From Acidobacteriota bacterium (GTDB lineage Bacteria; Acidobacteriota; Thermoanaerobaculia; Thermoanaerobaculales; Thermoanaerobaculaceae): 36,476 nucleotides of DNA. The stretch lies in contig SCRJ01000176.1 in the NCBI GenBank assembly GCA_004298115.1, forward strand, positions 1 through 36,476. Direction: 5' to 3'. Under the pieces are notes generated by a model. The model saw only the letters and a program-made list of their open reading frames with translations, made no database searches and was not told where the DNA came from. Positions 7,593 to 28,779 of this stretch are shown here, piece after piece. Position numbers and translations under genes: made by a program. Numbering within the stretch: position 1 is the stretch's first letter; each line of letters starts with the position of its first letter.

Positions 7593-8885
7593 ATGAGCGG
7601 ACATGGCGAGGGCGGTCGTGTGGTGCCCCATGCCCCGCGAGGGGTCAAGGGCCGCGTCCGCGTTCCGTCATCGAAGAGCGTGACGCAGCGGGCTCTCGTG
7701 GCGGCGGCGCTGGCCGGGCCGGGTTCCGCGGTGCGCTCGCCGCTCGATGCGGAGGACCCGCGGCTGCTCTTCGCAGCGCTGCGGCAGGCGGGCTTCCTCC
7801 TGGACTGGCAGGCGGACGGGATCGTCGCCCGCGGCCGCGACCGCGTCGCGGGCGGCGAGTTCTTCCTCGGCAACAACGGCACCGGCGCCCGCTTCCTGCT
7901 CGCCCAACTCGCCGCCCTCCCAGGCCGGTGGGTGCTCGACGGCTCCGAGCGCCTGCGCGAGCGCCCGCTGGCGCCGCTGGCGGCGGCGCTGGTGCGGCTC
8001 GGCGCCCGGATCGAGCCGATGCGCGGCGCGGCGCTGGCCCTGCCGCTCGCCGTGGCCGGCCGGCCGCTCGCCGGCGGCGAGGTGGCGCTGGACGCGTCCT
8101 CCTCCAGCCAGTTCGTGTCGGCGCTGCTGCTGCTTGGCGCGGCGCTGCCCGCTGGCCTTGCGGTGCGGCTCGCGGCGCCGCCGCCGTCGCGCCCGTACCT
8201 CGACCTCACGGCGGACGTGCTGGAAGTGTTCGGCGCACGCGTCGTTGCGGACGCCTCGGGCACGGTATTTACGGTGCCGGGCGGCGGCCTCGCCGCGGCC
8301 GAGATCACGGTCGAGGGGGACTGGTCGGCGGCGGCGTTTCCGCTCGCGGCGGCGGCCGTCGCCGGCGGCGCGGTCGAGGTCGTCGGGGTGCGGTGTACGA
8401 GCCGTCAAGGCGACGCCGCCGTGCTGGCGGTGCTCGAACGGGCGGGGTGCCGCTGGACGGCCTCGCGCGAAGGCGTCGTCCTCGCCGGGCCGGCCACGAG
8501 GCCGGTGGCGGCCGACCTGCGTGACGCCCCGGACCTGTTCCCCGCGCTCGCCGTGGTGACGGCGCTGGCGGGCGGCCGCCTCGACGGCCTGCAGGGGCTG
8601 GCGGCCAAGGAGAGCGACCGGCTGGCCGTGATGGCGCGCCACCTTGCGGCGCTGGGGTTCGCGGTGGAGACCGGCGAAGGGTGGTTCGCCGCGCCCGGCG
8701 GCCGCCCCGGTCCGGCCGGTCCGACCGCGCCGCTCGACCCCGCGGCGGACCACAGGATCGCGATGGCGCTGGCGGTGGCGGGGTGTGCCGTGCCGGGCGT
8801 CCGCGTCCTCGGCCCGGGGTGCGTCGCCAAGTCGTGGCCGGGGTTCTGGGACGCGTGGGAGGCTCTGGTCGCGGAGGGCGTGTGA
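7593..8885 (+). CDS. aroA: 3-phosphoshikimate 1-carboxyvinyltransferase (EPSP synthase)
   Basis: A 430-residue cytosolic enzyme of the shikimate pathway that joins shikimate-3-phosphate and phosphoenolpyruvate to give EPSP, for chorismate and aromatic amino acids. Visible landmarks in order: [11 protein letters not shown] (substrate-binding Lys/Ser), [97 protein letters not shown] and the C-terminal [10 protein letters not shown]. The ATG at 7593 is preferred because AAGG lies 5 nt upstream; a GTG at 7587 in the same frame overlaps that site. The last codons overlap the start of the sigma-54 activator gene by 4 nt. Confidence 0.95.
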
Positions 8886-11800
8886 GTGTGCGCCCGCCGG
8901 GCGCGGCGGAGCTGGCGCGCCTGTTGGCGTGGGACGCCACGTTCCTTCCCGAGGTGACCGAGGTCGGCGGCGGGCCCGACGCGGTGGTGGCGCGCTGCGA
9001 CGCCCGCGGCGCGACGCTGGGCGCGGTGGCGCGGTGGCCCCGCGGCCAGCGTGCGGCCGTTGCCGTGCAGGTGGTCGCGGCGGCCGCGTTCCTGTTCGAG
9101 CGCGGCTGGTACCCGTCCCGCGGTCTCCTGCGCGGCGGACGGGTGGAGCGCGGCGCATCGGGGCCGTGGTACCGCCTGAGCCGGCTCCCGCGCCGCCGCC
9201 TCGACGACGCCGGCGTCGAGCGCCACCTGCGGCTGGCGCTGGCGAGCGAGGCCACCCTCCTCGTCCCGGCCGTGCTCCCCCTGTTGCGCGCGCTTCTGCC
9301 CGAGGTGGGGGACGAACTCGAACGCGCGGCCCGCGTGCGGCCGGCCTGGGAGGCGGCCGCCGGCTGGCTCGGACTTCTCATCGGAAGCGGCAGCCGCCGC
9401 GGACCCGCGCTGCGCCATCCTGCGGGTGCGGGGAGGGCGCTGTGGGCGCTCCGGTTCGAGGTTCCCACCGCCGGCGTGCGCTGGGTCGAGGACGAGGCCC
9501 TTCTCCCCCGGTTGGCGGCGGCGGCCCGAATGGCCGCGTTGGGGCGCAACGTGGCGGTCGCCGCCGGCGCGCTCGACGACGCGGAGGTGGCGCGAGTGCA
9601 GGCGCACGCGGCGGCGGCGGGGTGCGACGCCGCGGTGCTCACGGCGCTGCCCCTGTCCGGCGTCGCGCCGGTCGAGCTGGCGGCGGGGGCCGAATCGGTG
9701 TGGATCGTCGCGCCCCGGCCGGACCTCGCCAACGCCCATGCGGTCGTGGCCCGCGAGGGCCGGCCGGGCGTGGCCCGCCTCGTGACCGAGGCCGGGGCAG
9801 TGGACGGGTTTGCGCGCCCGCCGCGGCCCCTGGAGGCGTTGCGGGCGCGCACCGGCCTCGCCTCGGAGGCGGCCCGGGTCGCTCTGAGCTGGCTCGCGAG
9901 CGCGCCGGCCGGTCTCTCCGCCGAGGAACTCGCGGCGGTCGCGGGAGAGGCCGCCGCCGGCCTCGCGGAGCTCAGGCGTCTCGGCCTGGCGCACGAGCGC
10001 CGGGGGACCTGGCGAGCGCAGCAGCCGGCCGCGTCCCCGGCGCCGGATCGGCTGGCGGCGATGGCCGAACGGCTGCCGGCCGCAAGCCCCGCAGGACTCG
10101 TCGCCCGGGCTGCGACCGGCGCCTGGGAGCCCGCGTTGGCGTGGTGCGACGAGCGCCTCGACCGCGGCGCCTTCGCCGCCGCCCGCGCCGTCGCGGCGGC
10201 GGCCGCGGTTGCCGCCGCGCCGCTCCGGCTCGCCGCCGCCGAAGGCGCGCTCGGCCTCGGCCGCCTTGCCGAGGCCGAAGCGCAGCTGTACGCCGTACCG
10301 GCCGCGCAACGCGAGACGCGCTGGCATGCCCTCGCCGCCTGGTGGGCCGAGGAGGCGGGCGCCAGCGAGCAGGCTGGGGCCGAGGTGGCGGCGGCGGCCG
10401 GCGATCTGCCCGGCCGCCTGGCGGCGCGGCGCGAGCTGGTGGCGGCGCAGGCGGCCCGCCGCCGGGGCGACCGCGCAGCCCAGCGGCGGCACCTCGAACG
10501 CGGCGCCGCCTGCACCACGCCCCCGCTCGCGGAGGTCGAGATCGAGCTCGCCGCGTGGGAGGGCGCGCCGGGGCTGCGCGCGCTCGCTCGCCGCAAGGCG
10601 CCGCGCTGGTCCGGCGACGATGCGGCCCGCCTGTTGCACCTGACGGGCCTGGCCGCGATCGACCGCGGCTGTCTCCCCACCGCGCTGACCGGGCTGCGCG
10701 CGGCGCTGCGCGCCGCGAGCGGCGGGAACCCGCGCCTGCTCGGCGAGATCCACGCCGATGTCGCGTGCGCGGCGATCCTCGCCGAGCAGCCCGGCGTTGC
10801 CGACCGCCACCTGGTGTTGGCGCAGGGGTTGCTCGAGCGCTGCGGTTCGCGGCGTGCGACCACGGTGGTGCGGGCCAACCGAGCGGTGTTGGCCAACGAT
10901 CGTCTCGACTGGCGCGCGGCCCGCGAGCTGACGCTCGCCGGTCGCCGGCTGCGCGGCGAGGTCGACGACGCCGGCACCTGGCTCTTCGACCTGGAGCTGG
11001 CGCGCACCGACCTGGCCCGCGGCGACGCGGCCGCGGTTCGCGACCAGCTCCCCCGCCTCACGGCCGGGGTCGCGAGGTTTCCCGAGCAACCGGTGCTCGG
11101 ACAAGCGCTCGCCGGCCTGGTGGCGCACCTCGCGCTGGCGCTCGGGGATCTGCCGGGCGCCGTGACATCGGCGGCGGCGGCCGAAGCCGGGGAACGGGGC
11201 CTCATCCTGGCCGTCGCGGCCGCCGACCTCGGCACCGACCCGCCCGCCGCCACGAGCCGGCGCTGGGGGGTCGCGGTGACGGCCCAGCTGCTCGCCGCCC
11301 GGCGCCGGGGCGACGAGGCCGGCGCGCTGGCGCTGCTCGAACGCGCGCTCGAGCACTGGCCCCGCGAGGCCGGCGTCGGGTTCGCCCGCTTCGCGGCGCT
11401 GCTGGCACGGCGGGGCGAGCGGTTGGGCCCGGCGTGGGACGACCCCGCGCAGCGCGTCGAGGCGGCACTCGGACAGGCCGATCTCGACGGCTGGGCGCGA
11501 GTCCTCCGCGACGCGTGCGGTCCCGATCCGGCGCGGGTGGTGCGCACGCTGGACGGCATGGTCAACGCGGGGACCGATGCCTGCAATCCGGTTCGTTTGG
11601 AGGCGCTGGCGCGAGCCCTGGACCTCGGTTTCCTGGAGGTCGAGCGCGGCGGCGCCGTCCTCGGGCGGTGGGGTCGAGTCGAGCGGCCGTTCTTCGCCGT
11701 CGAGGCCGGCGGGACGACGGTGCGCGCCGCCGGCGCCAGGCGTCCGCTCGCCGATGCGGCGCTGGCGATGGTGGCGCGCTGGATCGCCGGCGCGGCCGAC

Positions 11801-12772
11801 GGCACGCCCGCCGAGGCCGCCCGGGGCGCCGGTGAGCAGCTGCTCGGCAGCAGCCGCGCGCTGGCGCTGGTTCGCGAGGAGGTGGCGCGCTGGGGTCCGC
11901 TCCCGCTCACCGTTCTGATCGTCGGCGAGCCGGGGACCGGCAAGGAGCTTGTGGCCCGCGAGCTGCACCGCTCGAGCGGCAGGCGCGGGGCGTTCATCCC
12001 TGTCAACTGCGCCGGGATCCCCTCCGCCCTGCTCGAGGCCGAGCTGTTCGGTGTGACGCGCGGAGCGTTCACGGGCGCCGATCGCGACCGGGCGGGGCTC
12101 GTCGAGGCTGCCGAGGGCGGCACGCTCTTCCTCGACGAGGTGGGCGAGCTCCCTCTCGAGCTGCAGGGCAAGCTGTTGCGGTTGTTGCAGGAGCGCGAGG
12201 TGCGGCGGGTCGGTGCGACGCGCACCCGCACGATCGACGCCCGCTTCGTCGCCGCCTCGAACCGCGACCTCAAGGGCGCGGCGGCGGCCGGGTTGTTCCG
12301 GCAGGACCTCTACTACCGGCTCGCGGTCGCGGTGATCGAGGTGCCGCCGCTGCGCGCGCGGCCGGACGACATCGCCGAGCTGGCGCTCCACTTCGTCAGC
12401 CGGTTCGCGACAACGTTCGCCCGTCCCGGCGTCCGGCTGGCGCCCGCGGCGGTGGAGCTCCTGCGCCGCGCCCCGTGGCCCGGCAACGTTCGCGAGCTGG
12501 AGTCGGCGGTGGCGCGCGCGGTCGCCGCCGGACGCCCGGGAGAGGCGCTGGGGCCCGACCGTTTTCCCGGCCTTTCCCAGGCGGCGACCGACGCCGAGCC
12601 GCTGCCAACTTGGCCGGCGGCGCTGGCGTCGTTCCGGCAGGGCTACTTCGCGGCCGTGCTGCGGGAGTCGGCAGGGAACCGGACGCAGGCGGCGCGCCGG
12701 GCCGGGATCTCGCGTCAGGCGCTGCTCTACCACTTGAAAGAGCTCGGCGTTCGCGGACGGGGGCCGGGCTGA
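8882..12772 (+). CDS. Giant sigma-54-dependent transcriptional activator
   Basis: A 1296-residue bacterial enhancer-binding protein. The C-terminal third is canonical: AAA+ domain about 985-1215 with Walker A GEPGTGKE (about 1015-1022), the sigma-54 contact loop GAFTGA (1061-1066), Walker B GGTLFLDE and sensor [15 protein letters not shown] Fis-type helix-turn-helix ends the protein ([20 protein letters not shown]). The N-terminal 980 residues are not a usual receiver, GAF or PAS domain. Residues 1-380 are not recognised (possibly a degenerate kinase-like or STAND-like region), and about 390-800 is Ala/Leu/Arg-rich and reads as TPR-like helices. GTG 8882 overlaps the aroA stop (GTGTGA); GTG 8888 is an alternative. 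It should drive promoters of the -24/-12 type, one of which is seen at 25607. The input signal is unknown. Confidence 0.88.
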
Positions 12773-12992: not shown

Positions 12993-13024
12993 TCCCTGAC
13001 CGCACCCATCGCTAAGCAAACCCC

Positions 13025-13984
13025 ATGCCAGGTTCCCCCGAGTGGCGCTCGTTTCAACGGCAAGTTGCTGAGCTGTCGGTGGATGGCCTGTCGGTCAGCG
13101 AATTCGAGCCGCTCGCCCCCCACACGACCCTCAGGATCGGGGGCCCGGCTCGGCTCCTCGTGCGCTGCGCCAGCCGCGGCGCGGTGGCGGCCGCGGTGCG
13201 GGCCGCCGGGCAAGCCCGGATCCCATGGCTGGTGCTGGGGCTCGGCGCCAACGTGCTGGTGCCGGACGCGGGGTTGGATGCGGCGGTGCTGATGCTGGTG
13301 GACGAGCTTGCGGCCGTGGCGGTCGACGGCACACGGCTGCGGGCCGGCGGCGGCGCCCAACTCGGCCGGGCGGTGCGGGCCGCGCTGGACGCCGGTTTGG
13401 CCGGAATCGAGTGCCTGGGTGGCATCCCGTCGACGATCGGCGGGGCGCTCGCGATGAACGCCGGCGCCTACGGGCAGGAGATCCTCAATGTGGTTGATTG
13501 GGCAGAGGTTGTGGAGGAGGGTGGGGACCTGCGGCGGCTCGAGCGTCGGGAAATCGAGGGAGGGTACCGCTGGAGTGTCCTCGGGGTGGGACGGGTTGTC
13601 ACCTCCGCTGAACTGGCGCTGAAGGCCGAGGACCCCGCCGCGCTGCGGGAGCGCGCCCGCCAGGCGCGGGAGCGACGCCGCGGCGTCCTGCCGCCGGAGC
13701 CGTCCGCGGGGAGCGTGTTCCGCAACCCGGCGGGGGACTTCGCCGGACGGCTGCTGGAGCTCGCGGGGTGCAAGGGGATGCGCAGCGGGGGGGCCGAGGT
13801 CAGCGAGCGCCACGCCAACGTCATCGTCAACCCCGGAGGGGCGACGGCGGCGGGCGTGCGCGAGCTGGTGGCGGCGATGGCGGGGCGGGTTCGGGAGCGG
13901 TTCGGCGTGCACCTCGAGCTCGAGCTCAAGGTCCTCGATCGCAACGGCAAGGCGGTGGCCGATCCCGAAGCACCGCTTGCATGA
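13025..13984 (+). CDS. murB: UDP-N-acetylmuramate dehydrogenase
   Basis: A 319-residue FAD enzyme that reduces UDP-GlcNAc-enolpyruvate to UDP-MurNAc with NADPH in cytosolic peptidoglycan precursor synthesis. The FAD-binding part has [11 protein letters not shown] (37-46), [11 protein letters not shown] (71-81) and [20 protein letters not shown] (133-152). The substrate domain has YRWSVL (181-186) and GSVFRNP with the catalytic serine at about residue 230; a C-terminal Glu lies in HLELELKVL. There is no extra loop between YRWS and the serine, as in the shorter type II MurB enzymes. No Shine-Dalgarno is seen before ATG 13025. The acpP promoter overlaps the end of the gene. Confidence 0.93.
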
Positions 13985-22631: not shown

Positions 22632-24143
<1,512 letters not shown>

Positions 24144-25238
24144 TCAGCAGGCGAGAGCCGGGGCGGACTCCAGATAGTGCGCGATGTAGCTGGCGTACAG
24201 GCGGTACAGCCTGAGCTTCTCGGGAACGAGACGGTGGAAGTCGAGCTGGACCTCGGCGGCCCGGCGGACGATTTCCGCTTGCGCGTCGCCGGCGCGGAAG
24301 CCGCGGAAGCGGTCCGCGTACGGCCGCAGCGCGTCGATGACCCGCCGCATCGCCTCGTCGAACGCCGTCGGAGAAACCGCCGTTCCGGGTTCGAACTGCA
24401 AGATCGCGCGGCTCGCCACGTTCACCGGCAGGATCTTCACGAGGTCGAGGCAGCGCTGCCGCGACAGCGCCGCGAGCCCCTTGCGATCGGCGTCGAGGTG
24501 ATCGGCCACGCGCACCGGCTTGCCGTACGAGAGGTAGGTGTCCCCGATGTTGCGGATCATCGAGAACGAGTCGAGCACGTGCAGCGTGCGCGGCTTGCCC
24601 GTCCCCTCGCCGACCATCTCCTCGGCCTCGCGCACCCGGGTGTAGTCCACGTTGAACGGCACGATGTAGACCTCGCGGGCCGCAAGGCCGGGGTTGCTCG
24701 CGAGGATGAGCTCGCGGTTGCGCGCGTACTCGAGGGCGGCGTCGAACGCGGTGGGAAAAAAATCCCCGTAACGGGCGTGCGCCGGGATATTTTTCCGGGT
24801 GCCCTCGGGGAAGACCATCACGTCGAGGCCGTGCGCGAGGAACGAGAGCACGTCGTCCCGCAGCTGGCGCGCCGACTCGAGCATCTCCTTGCGGCTCGCC
24901 GGCCGCCGCACCAGGAACGCCCCGATCTTCCAGCTCAGATGTTGGAAGACCCGGCCCTTGACCAGGTTGTCGCCCATTCCGACGTACGGCACCGGCAGGC
25001 CGGCGAGATGGAGGGGCGGGAGCACCCCGCTCGTCTCCCACAGGCTCTTGTGCAGCCCGCAATAGAGGAACACGGCGTCGCCCCGCCGCTTGATCGCCGC
25101 CACGTCGTCGTCCATCTCGACGTGCGGGCGCACGAGGAAGCGATGACCGAACAGGGCGATCGTCCTGGCGGTCCAGTAGTAGACGTTGCGCCGGTCGGAA
25201 ACGTCGAGCGCGGCGACGGGGTAGGCACGATCACCCAT
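24144..25238 (-). CDS. PlsB/PlsC-type glycerol-phosphate acyltransferase
   Basis: A 364-residue acyltransferase of the phospholipid-synthesis superfamily. Motif I is HKSLWE (an HX4E variant of HX4D) in [14 protein letters not shown] near residue 58; motif III is [11 protein letters not shown] near 143. [10 protein letters not shown] between them fits motif II. It is longer than a typical PlsC (about 240 residues) and closer in plan to the catalytic part of PlsB or DHAP acyltransferases, so it may acylate glycerol-3-phosphate or a related polar head. ATG 25238 begins [20 protein letters not shown]; the open frame upstream is Arg/Pro-rich and unlikely. No Shine-Dalgarno is seen, but TATTCT ends 6 nt before the ATG. 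Confidence 0.82.
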
Positions 25239-25244
25239 TCGCGG

Positions 25245-25250
25245 AGAATA
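25245..25250 (-). promoter_or_regulatory. -10 box TATTCT placed for a leaderless acyltransferase mRNA
   Basis: On the minus strand TATTCT is followed by CCGCGA and ATG; a start 7 nt after the box is the A of ATG itself. No -35 match or Shine-Dalgarno is visible. Confidence 0.35.
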
Positions 25251-25417
25251 CACCCAAGCCTCCGGGGGGGGCGCCGCGGATCGCGGACCACGCGCCTGGC
25301 GGGGACCCGCGGCCGGAGCGGCCGCCTCCGGCCGACGACGGCGTCGCCGTCCTGGGGCGCGACCGCCGGGCGCGCATGTTGGCGATACCCATGCTCGGTT
25401 CCGAGGTCTTGCCCTCT

Positions 25418-25455
25418 CCGACCAAGGACCACGGACCCCGGGCCACGCCTCGGTG
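25418..25455. repeat. Short degenerate copy of the GGACCACGG repeat
   Basis: GACCAAGGACCACGGACC is followed by CCGGGCCACG and, after a short loop, GGTGGTCC, so GGACCAC/GTGGTCC form an inverted repeat. The units are those of the repeats at 11-146 and 36103-36240, but order and length are degraded. The rest of 25251-25600 holds no gene I can support. Confidence 0.4.
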
Positions 25456-25606
25456 GTCCCCCGTCGTGGCCGCGAGTGCCGTATTGGCCGCTGCCGGCGT
25501 CTGCAGCGTCCGGCCGGGGATGGGGCGGTGGCCTCCGGAGGGGACGGGCGAGGTGGCAGCCGTGGCGGCCGTGGACGCCATGCCGGGACCGTGGGGCATC
25601 GGGAGA

Positions 25607-25622
25607 TGGCACGGTAATTGCT
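25607..25622 (+). promoter_or_regulatory. Sigma-54 (-24/-12) promoter
   Basis: TGGCACGGTAATTGCT matches the sigma-54 consensus TGGCACG-N4-TTGCW at every fixed base, with the required 10 nt between the invariant GG (25608-25609) and GC (25620-25621). Transcription should start near 25633 on the plus strand. Such promoters are silent without an AAA+ activator of the kind encoded at 8882-12772. No annotated plus-strand gene follows before the terminator at 25804. Confidence 0.8.
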
Positions 25623-25693
25623 TAACGAAAGGCAAGCAGCACGCCCCTGCAGCGACATCGAGATCGCCGCAGGGCACGAGAGGAGGCAGGCGG

Positions 25694-25801
25694 TCATGCA
25701 CCCACTTTGCAGGCCACGCAACTTGGCCCACCAAACTTTCCTCTCTCACACTTCCATTCCTTGATGTCCAAACGTAGCGCTTGACCGCCTACCTTGCACA
25801 T
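25694..25801 (-). CDS. Possible 35-residue Cys-containing ORF antisense to the small RNA
   Basis: An ATG-to-TGA frame on the minus strand just beyond the secA-side hairpin. It has four cysteines (residues 2, 18, 29, 32), among them SCVACKVG at the end, which echoes CKVGG at the start. The third codon position is G or C in only 19 of 35 codons, far below neighbouring genes, so the piece is foreign or not coding. No Shine-Dalgarno is seen: the ATG follows the terminator hairpin directly. The plus-strand promoter and terminator speak for the other strand. I do not recognise the peptide. Confidence 0.15.
   Translation of the reverse strand: MCKVGGQALRLDIKEWKCERGKFGGPSCVACKVGA
25696..25764 (+). 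CDS. Possible 22-residue peptide encoded in the sigma-54 transcript
   Basis: ATG 25696 lies 10 nt after AGGAGG (25681-25686), the best ribosome binding site in this intergenic region. It opens a 22-codon frame beginning MHPLCRPRNL and ending in TGA, which overlaps the ATG of a further six-codon frame (MSKRSA). The peptide is basic, His/Pro/Thr-rich and without a hydrophobic stretch. The ATG falls at the end of the 5' strand of the 9-bp helix, so pairing would hide the start. It could be a real small protein, a regulatory ORF, or chance. Confidence 0.3.
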   Translation: MHPLCRPRNLAHQTFLSHTSIP

Positions 25802-25803
25802 CC

Positions 25804-25835
25804 AACCGCCGGCAGCCGCCGGCGGTTTGGTTTTT
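25804..25835 (+). terminator. Intrinsic terminator of the sigma-54 transcript
   Basis: AACCGCCGGC (25804-25813) and GCCGGCGGTT (25818-25827) form a perfect 10-bp stem with an AGCC loop, followed by TGGTTTTT. The T-tract is only on the plus-strand side, so it ends transcription coming from 25607 and not that of secA, whose stop is 13 nt away on the other strand. Confidence 0.85.
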
Positions 25836-25848
25836 GGGGAGGTCCCGC

Positions 25849-28629
<2,781 letters not shown>

Positions 28630-28647
28630 ACCCACCTCGAATCGGAA

Positions 28648-28676
28648 ACAGTACGCCTGACGGCCCGCAAACTCAA
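28648..28676 (-). promoter_or_regulatory. Sigma-70-type promoter for secA
   Basis: On the minus strand TTGAGT (28676-28671), a 17-nt spacer and TACTGT (28653-28648). The start would be near 28641, giving a leader of about a dozen nucleotides that contains the GAGGTGG ribosome binding site. Confidence 0.5.
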
Positions 28677-28779
28677 GCCGGAGCACGACCAACCGGCTTT
28701 TGAACCGGGTCGTGGCGAGGGCTCCGCCGTGGCGGGCCCGGGCGAGCCCAAGGTCGCCGACGGGTCTGCGATCGCGGCC

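Follow-up and report, generated by a model that had tools for sequence, protein, structure and literature searches.

A predicted sigma-54-controlled small RNA of Acidobacteriota and its putatively constitutive paralogue

The interval between an acyltransferase gene and secA in an acidobacterial genome very probably holds a free-standing noncoding RNA gene that has its own sigma-54 promoter and is kin to a second RNA gene of the same genome, a joint claim based on sequence comparison among relatives. The predicted RNA, type A, looks like the sigma-54-inducible sister of a constitutive sRNA, type B. None of the 17 genomes of the bacterial family lacks a copy of A or B, so that sequence, structure and promoter class together delimit a single RNA family in all family genomes searched, with a paralogue pair divided between housekeeping-type and sigma-54 control. 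Described sRNAs in Acidobacteria are very few (a 2022 survey gives four annotated families, PMC9029176), and the pair would offer a testable entry to RNA regulation in this phylum, the genomes here being rich in sigma-54 activators and encoding Hfq.

Promoter, predicted transcript and conservation of type A

The window (the whole stretch of DNA analysed, 36,476 nt of contig SCRJ01000176.1) contains a perfect match to the sigma-54 (−24/−12) promoter, TGGCAC-GGTAA-TTGCT, with no second perfect match anywhere in its 36 kb; genome-wide, the exact pattern was matched 12 times, against three matches for a reversed control pattern. Placing the C of TTGC at −12 puts the predicted start 12 nt further on, at about 25633, and therefore gives a predicted transcript of about 200 nt, with the terminator hairpin AACCGCCGGC-AGCC-GCCGGCGGTT, then TGGTTTTT, at its end (Table 1). 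Window scans thus bore out the first-pass annotation in its reading of a perfect promoter, a 10-bp hairpin with T-tract on the same strand and no conventional gene in between, the whole acyltransferase–secA interval being devoid of one. For its proposal that these make up a self-contained, sigma-54-dependent small transcript there is strong comparative support, in that both the promoter and a covarying structure are conserved and the genome encodes rpoN (PF04552 at G000:C20, E = 4.9e-63).

Table 1. Features of the type A locus, in window coordinates
Feature	Position	Strand	Basis or remark
Acyltransferase gene (PF01553)	24144-25238	minus	Flanks the RNA unit
Sigma-54 (−24/−12) promoter, TGGCAC-GGTAA-TTGCT	25607..25622	+	Window scan and comparison of relatives
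Predicted small RNA, type A	25633..25835	+	Inferred start to end of T-tract; covariance models R1, R3, R2
5′ hairpin, SL1	25645..25674	+	Consensus fold; four pairs with both sides changed
Closing helix P2, 5′ arm	25683..25699	+	97.6% of cells paired, six copies
Small internal hairpin, GCCA-N7-TGGC	25713..25727	+	95.8% of cells paired, six copies
GCCCACCAAAC, clearest CCNRCC example of the window copy	25726..25736	+	Family motif
Long, mostly unpaired stretch, TTCCATTCCTTGATGTCCAAACG	25748..25780	+	Alignments; conservation strong among the five closest copies
Closing helix P2, 3′ arm	25779..25795	+	Same basis as the 5′ arm
Predicted intrinsic terminator, 10-bp stem and T-tract	25804..25835	+	Hairpin scan; stem compensations in relatives
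secA	25849-28692	minus	Flanks the RNA unit on the other side

A blastn search of the unit against 100 relatives recovered matches in five same-genus genomes at 70–85% identity, and in all five the sigma-54 promoter lay at an equal distance from the RNA (perfect in four, TGGCAT in G006). With the more distant copies included, the promoter preceded type A in 9/9 copies found: it was perfect in G003, G007, G005, G002 and G012a, read TGGCAT in G006 and G009b, and carried one mismatch at −12 in G010b. Ten of the 11 fixed promoter positions were invariant across seven type A copies, compared with one of the five spacer positions (spacers included GGTAA, GTTGT, GGGAT, GATGT and GTGAT), and in the 60 columns immediately upstream only seven were gap-free across six copies, one of those seven being invariant. 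Fixed bases are therefore kept while spacer and upstream DNA drift, the pattern expected of a promoter in use. No conserved enhancer site was seen upstream of the type A promoter past the three closest relatives. Covariance-model searches did not find type A in G001, G004, G008, G011 or G013–G016, so in these eight family genomes it is either dispensable or was missed in drafts.

The RNA predicted from the window was more stable than its dinucleotide shuffles (z = −2.96). The consensus fold started with a 5′ hairpin and finished with that of the terminator; its remaining elements were a long-range closing helix and small internal hairpins. Across six copies 94.3% of cells were paired and nine pairs had changed on both sides, a level of pairing and covariation reached by 0/500 shuffles and by no slid version of the alignment, in a control that ignores the relatedness of the copies. 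Double-sided changes were carried by three of the five helices in these six copies. Helix P2 was nearly invariant among them, and the addition of G012a brought two double changes, U-A to C-G and A-U to G-C; the small internal hairpin is weakly tested because it is mostly invariant. In the terminator stem, compensatory changes in relatives preserve pairing. The conservation of promoter, helices and terminator sought by covariance search thus held for the promoter, the helices and the terminator stem, but not for the T-tract: type A relatives mostly have no clear one 3′ of the hairpin, and termination there may for this reason be imperfect.

The long stretch at 25748–25780 is a candidate antisense seed, judging by its conservation in the closest copies. 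In the alignments it was not conserved in G006, nor in type B; since the candidate seed is not kept in G006, any A-specific targets may be lineage-specific.

The type B paralogue and its surroundings

Covariance model R1 recovered a second copy (G000:C168:29774-29971, E = 4.7e-5) within the genome that carries the window, as well as type B copies in eight further family genomes. Conversely, model R2, made exclusively from ten type B copies, matched the window copy at 25669–25840 (E = 2.6e-14) together with 8/8 other type A copies, and the kinship of A and B is therefore reciprocal. Six sister-family genomes gave weaker full-length matches preceded by the same promoter as type B; homology there is based on promoter and motif, with scores that are not strong. 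Aligned jointly, type B f1 and f2 did not stay in register, so no model was made from that alignment, and matches in G144 and G053 and short f2 matches were dropped as terminator-like only or promoterless. The Rfam comparison gave no match at gathering score and nothing credible up to E 5, and the literature searched contained no description of an RNA of this sort from the bacterial class. The A/B RNAs would accordingly count as a new family, judged by sequence, of a known kind, sigma-54-dependent sRNAs that have a constitutive sister.

Type B was preceded by T(A/G)GACA-N17-TA, always with 17-nt spacing, in 20/20 collected copies, ten of which had been found by RNA models or an RNA sequence pattern and the rest gathered using the promoter pattern itself. 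The element was present in 10/10 of the copies first examined, and it forms part of neither R1 nor R2. Of 13 pattern matches in genome contigs, three (L062, L064, L069) were put down to chance. We infer from this housekeeping (sigma-70-type) promoter class that type B is constitutive.

In most of the family the gene immediately 5′ of type B encodes a PEGA-domain protein (PF08308, E = 1.9e-10), and the RNA usually overlaps that gene's stop codon; other sequence stands upstream in G009a, G018, G027, G028, G034 and G035. Of the 13 loci scanned, 12 show a sigma-54-type promoter ahead of the PEGA gene's ATG, the site in G010a being weaker. In the genome studied here this gene encodes a secreted PEGA-domain protein (L057, G000:C168, 584-1489), and a near-consensus sigma-54 promoter stands about 30 nt 5′ of the ATG. 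Other perfect sigma-54 sites stand before genes which, named by eye, encode a prepilin-like product, an uncharacterised secreted protein and a porin-like protein (L073, L075, L076), and an AprB-like ferredoxin and an HtrA-like protease (L078, L080). Taken with the PEGA gene, the products behind these other sites possibly point to an envelope theme.

The suggestion that the large activator encoded at 8882–12772 controls type A did not find support. At least ten activators resembling it are present in the genome. In G001, G006 and G009 the orthologue of the window's activator and secA occur on one contig, from which type A is absent: it was not detected in G001 and maps to different contigs in the other two; because the orthologue stays with secA and the RNA is elsewhere or undetected, its synteny is with secA and not with the RNA. 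The activator ORF itself (8681–12772) is very long (up to 1363 aa), and about 1000 residues at its N terminus have no Pfam match. A near-perfect sigma-54-like site (TGGCATGGGGTTTGCT, 13015–13030, minus strand) has the activator gene on one side and a murB-like gene on the other. In nine genomes a different activator, with GAF and sigma-54 interaction domains, is encoded at a distance of about 5–6 kb from type B. In the present genome (L156, G000:C168, 5871-9958) a PDZ-GAF-SpoIIE phosphatase gene is followed by this GAF/sigma-54 activator gene, about 5 kb downstream of type B. It is a candidate only, as conserved gene order could account for the proximity, and a stress or nutrient signal for type A is a guess.

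Alternative readings and mode of action

Three other readings of the interval were weighed. A chance promoter match, with the conserved RNA driven from elsewhere, is the least probable of them: exact matches do arise at random a few times per genome, as the three control matches indicate, but the element stands just 5′ of the RNA in nine copies whose spacers drift, and no sigma-70-like site was found within 24000–27000. Hardly more plausible is a small peptide encoded by the 22-codon ORF at 25697–25765 (MHPLCRPRNLAHQTFLSHTSIP), which follows AGGAGG, a Shine-Dalgarno-like sequence suitably spaced from the ATG, and which has a same-length open frame in G003, G005 and G002. Substitutions in this frame are near neutral (dN/dS-like ratio 0.80, the other frames giving 0.95 and 1.09), G007 has a frameshift through a one-base deletion, the ATG is missing in G006, G012a and every type B copy, and the AGGAGG overlaps conserved helix P2, and on these grounds the small-peptide gene that had been entertained as an option in the first-pass annotation is not supported. 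Highly improbable, if a little less so, is that the unit serves secA expression as a terminator for secA or an antisense RNA on it. It is convergent with secA, and 13 nt separate its end from the stop codon of that gene, but the T-tract is on the plus strand, G001 and G008 carry secA with no detectable type A, and beyond the close relatives neighbourhoods differ, the copies in G006, G009, G010 and G012 lying by unrelated genes or on contigs other than that of secA.

As to mode of action, base-pairing with mRNAs, probably assisted by Hfq, is favoured and is given about an even chance; Hfq is encoded in 17/17 family genomes. Nearly all family genomes have two Hfq-family genes (here G000:C124:5175-5354 and G000:C88:34703-34861). 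An enhancer-binding protein would sense a signal, possibly cell-envelope-related, and turn on type A transcription; the RNA would then act in trans on a partner common to types A and B, and its conserved unpaired segment (25748–25780) could reach additional, A-specific targets. Type A would in this way supply a sigma-54-controlled extra dose of type B's function.

Both RNA types are rich in the motif CCNRCC, with 31 occurrences in type A against 10.0 expected from dinucleotide shuffles (about 3-fold) and, in two type B groups, 53 against 10.9 and 27 against 5.8 (about 5-fold); these counts come from 29 members that are mutually related, and hence not independent, and the motif was picked by eye before counting. 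Spacings between motifs peak at 13–15 nt, and accessibility is slightly higher at the motif than at other C bases. GG-spaced motifs are likewise enriched, probably owing to the closing helix. In the window copy CCNRCC occurs only once or twice.

This enrichment, spacing and accessibility speak for the main alternative to base-pairing, namely that type A, by raising the dose of a protein-binding core common to both RNAs, is a decoy sequestering an RNA-binding protein or RNase adaptor that acts on type B, an analogy we regard as possible but distinctly less probable. Closing helix, terminator fold and CCNRCC motifs are all common to A and B, and a sigma-54 promoter for A beside a housekeeping-type promoter for B recalls GlmY and GlmZ in E. 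coli (PMC7073468). Against it, the binding protein is postulated only, the window copy retains few of the motifs, and the 3′ half of type A is independently conserved in its closest copies, as would suit a base-pairing seed. Rather unlikely, finally, is a multi-site RNA in which a base helix bears a CCNRCC array (spacing of about 14 nt) that loads an RNA-binding protein, type B setting a baseline which type A and the sigma-54-controlled PEGA gene would shift under envelope stress; if true, this would be a new kind of multi-site RNA.

Comparison with known systems

The Qrr RNAs of vibrios are sigma-54-dependent, activator-controlled regulatory sRNAs; type A differs from them in having no Rfam match, and no quorum-sensing genes were noticed at its locus. 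RNAs of the CsrB/RsmZ type act as protein sponges through repeated short motifs, GGA. A repeated short motif is likewise found within the A/B RNAs, but it is CCNRCC rather than GGA, and CsrA was found in 0/17 family genomes.

Pxr is an sRNA so far known only in myxobacteria; it is intergenic, structured and sigma-54-driven, has a terminal stem-loop, and is encoded downstream of nla19/pxrR, a sigma-54 activator gene (PMC5568312, PMC5684412). Type A is likewise intergenic and structured, with a sigma-54-type promoter and a terminal stem-loop. In contrast to Pxr, it occurs in Acidobacteriota and has a sigma-70-type paralogue, and its neighbourhood is variable with no linked activator, the window copy being placed between secA and the acyltransferase gene. 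Compared by eye, the Pxr probe (PMC5568312) and the window RNA showed no likeness.

The GlmY/GlmZ system of enterobacteria consists of two homologous sRNAs, GlmY being sigma-54-regulated and GlmZ constitutive, in which GlmY is a decoy (PMC7073468). GlmY draws RapZ away from GlmZ in the control of glmS. The A/B RNAs differ from GlmY and GlmZ in having no Rfam match and no sequence relation that could be found, and in that the sigma-70-type copy adjoins a PEGA gene. Like them, A and B are a paralogous pair in which, going by promoter class, one member would be sigma-54-controlled and the other constitutive, possibly an independent parallel to the GlmY/GlmZ layout.
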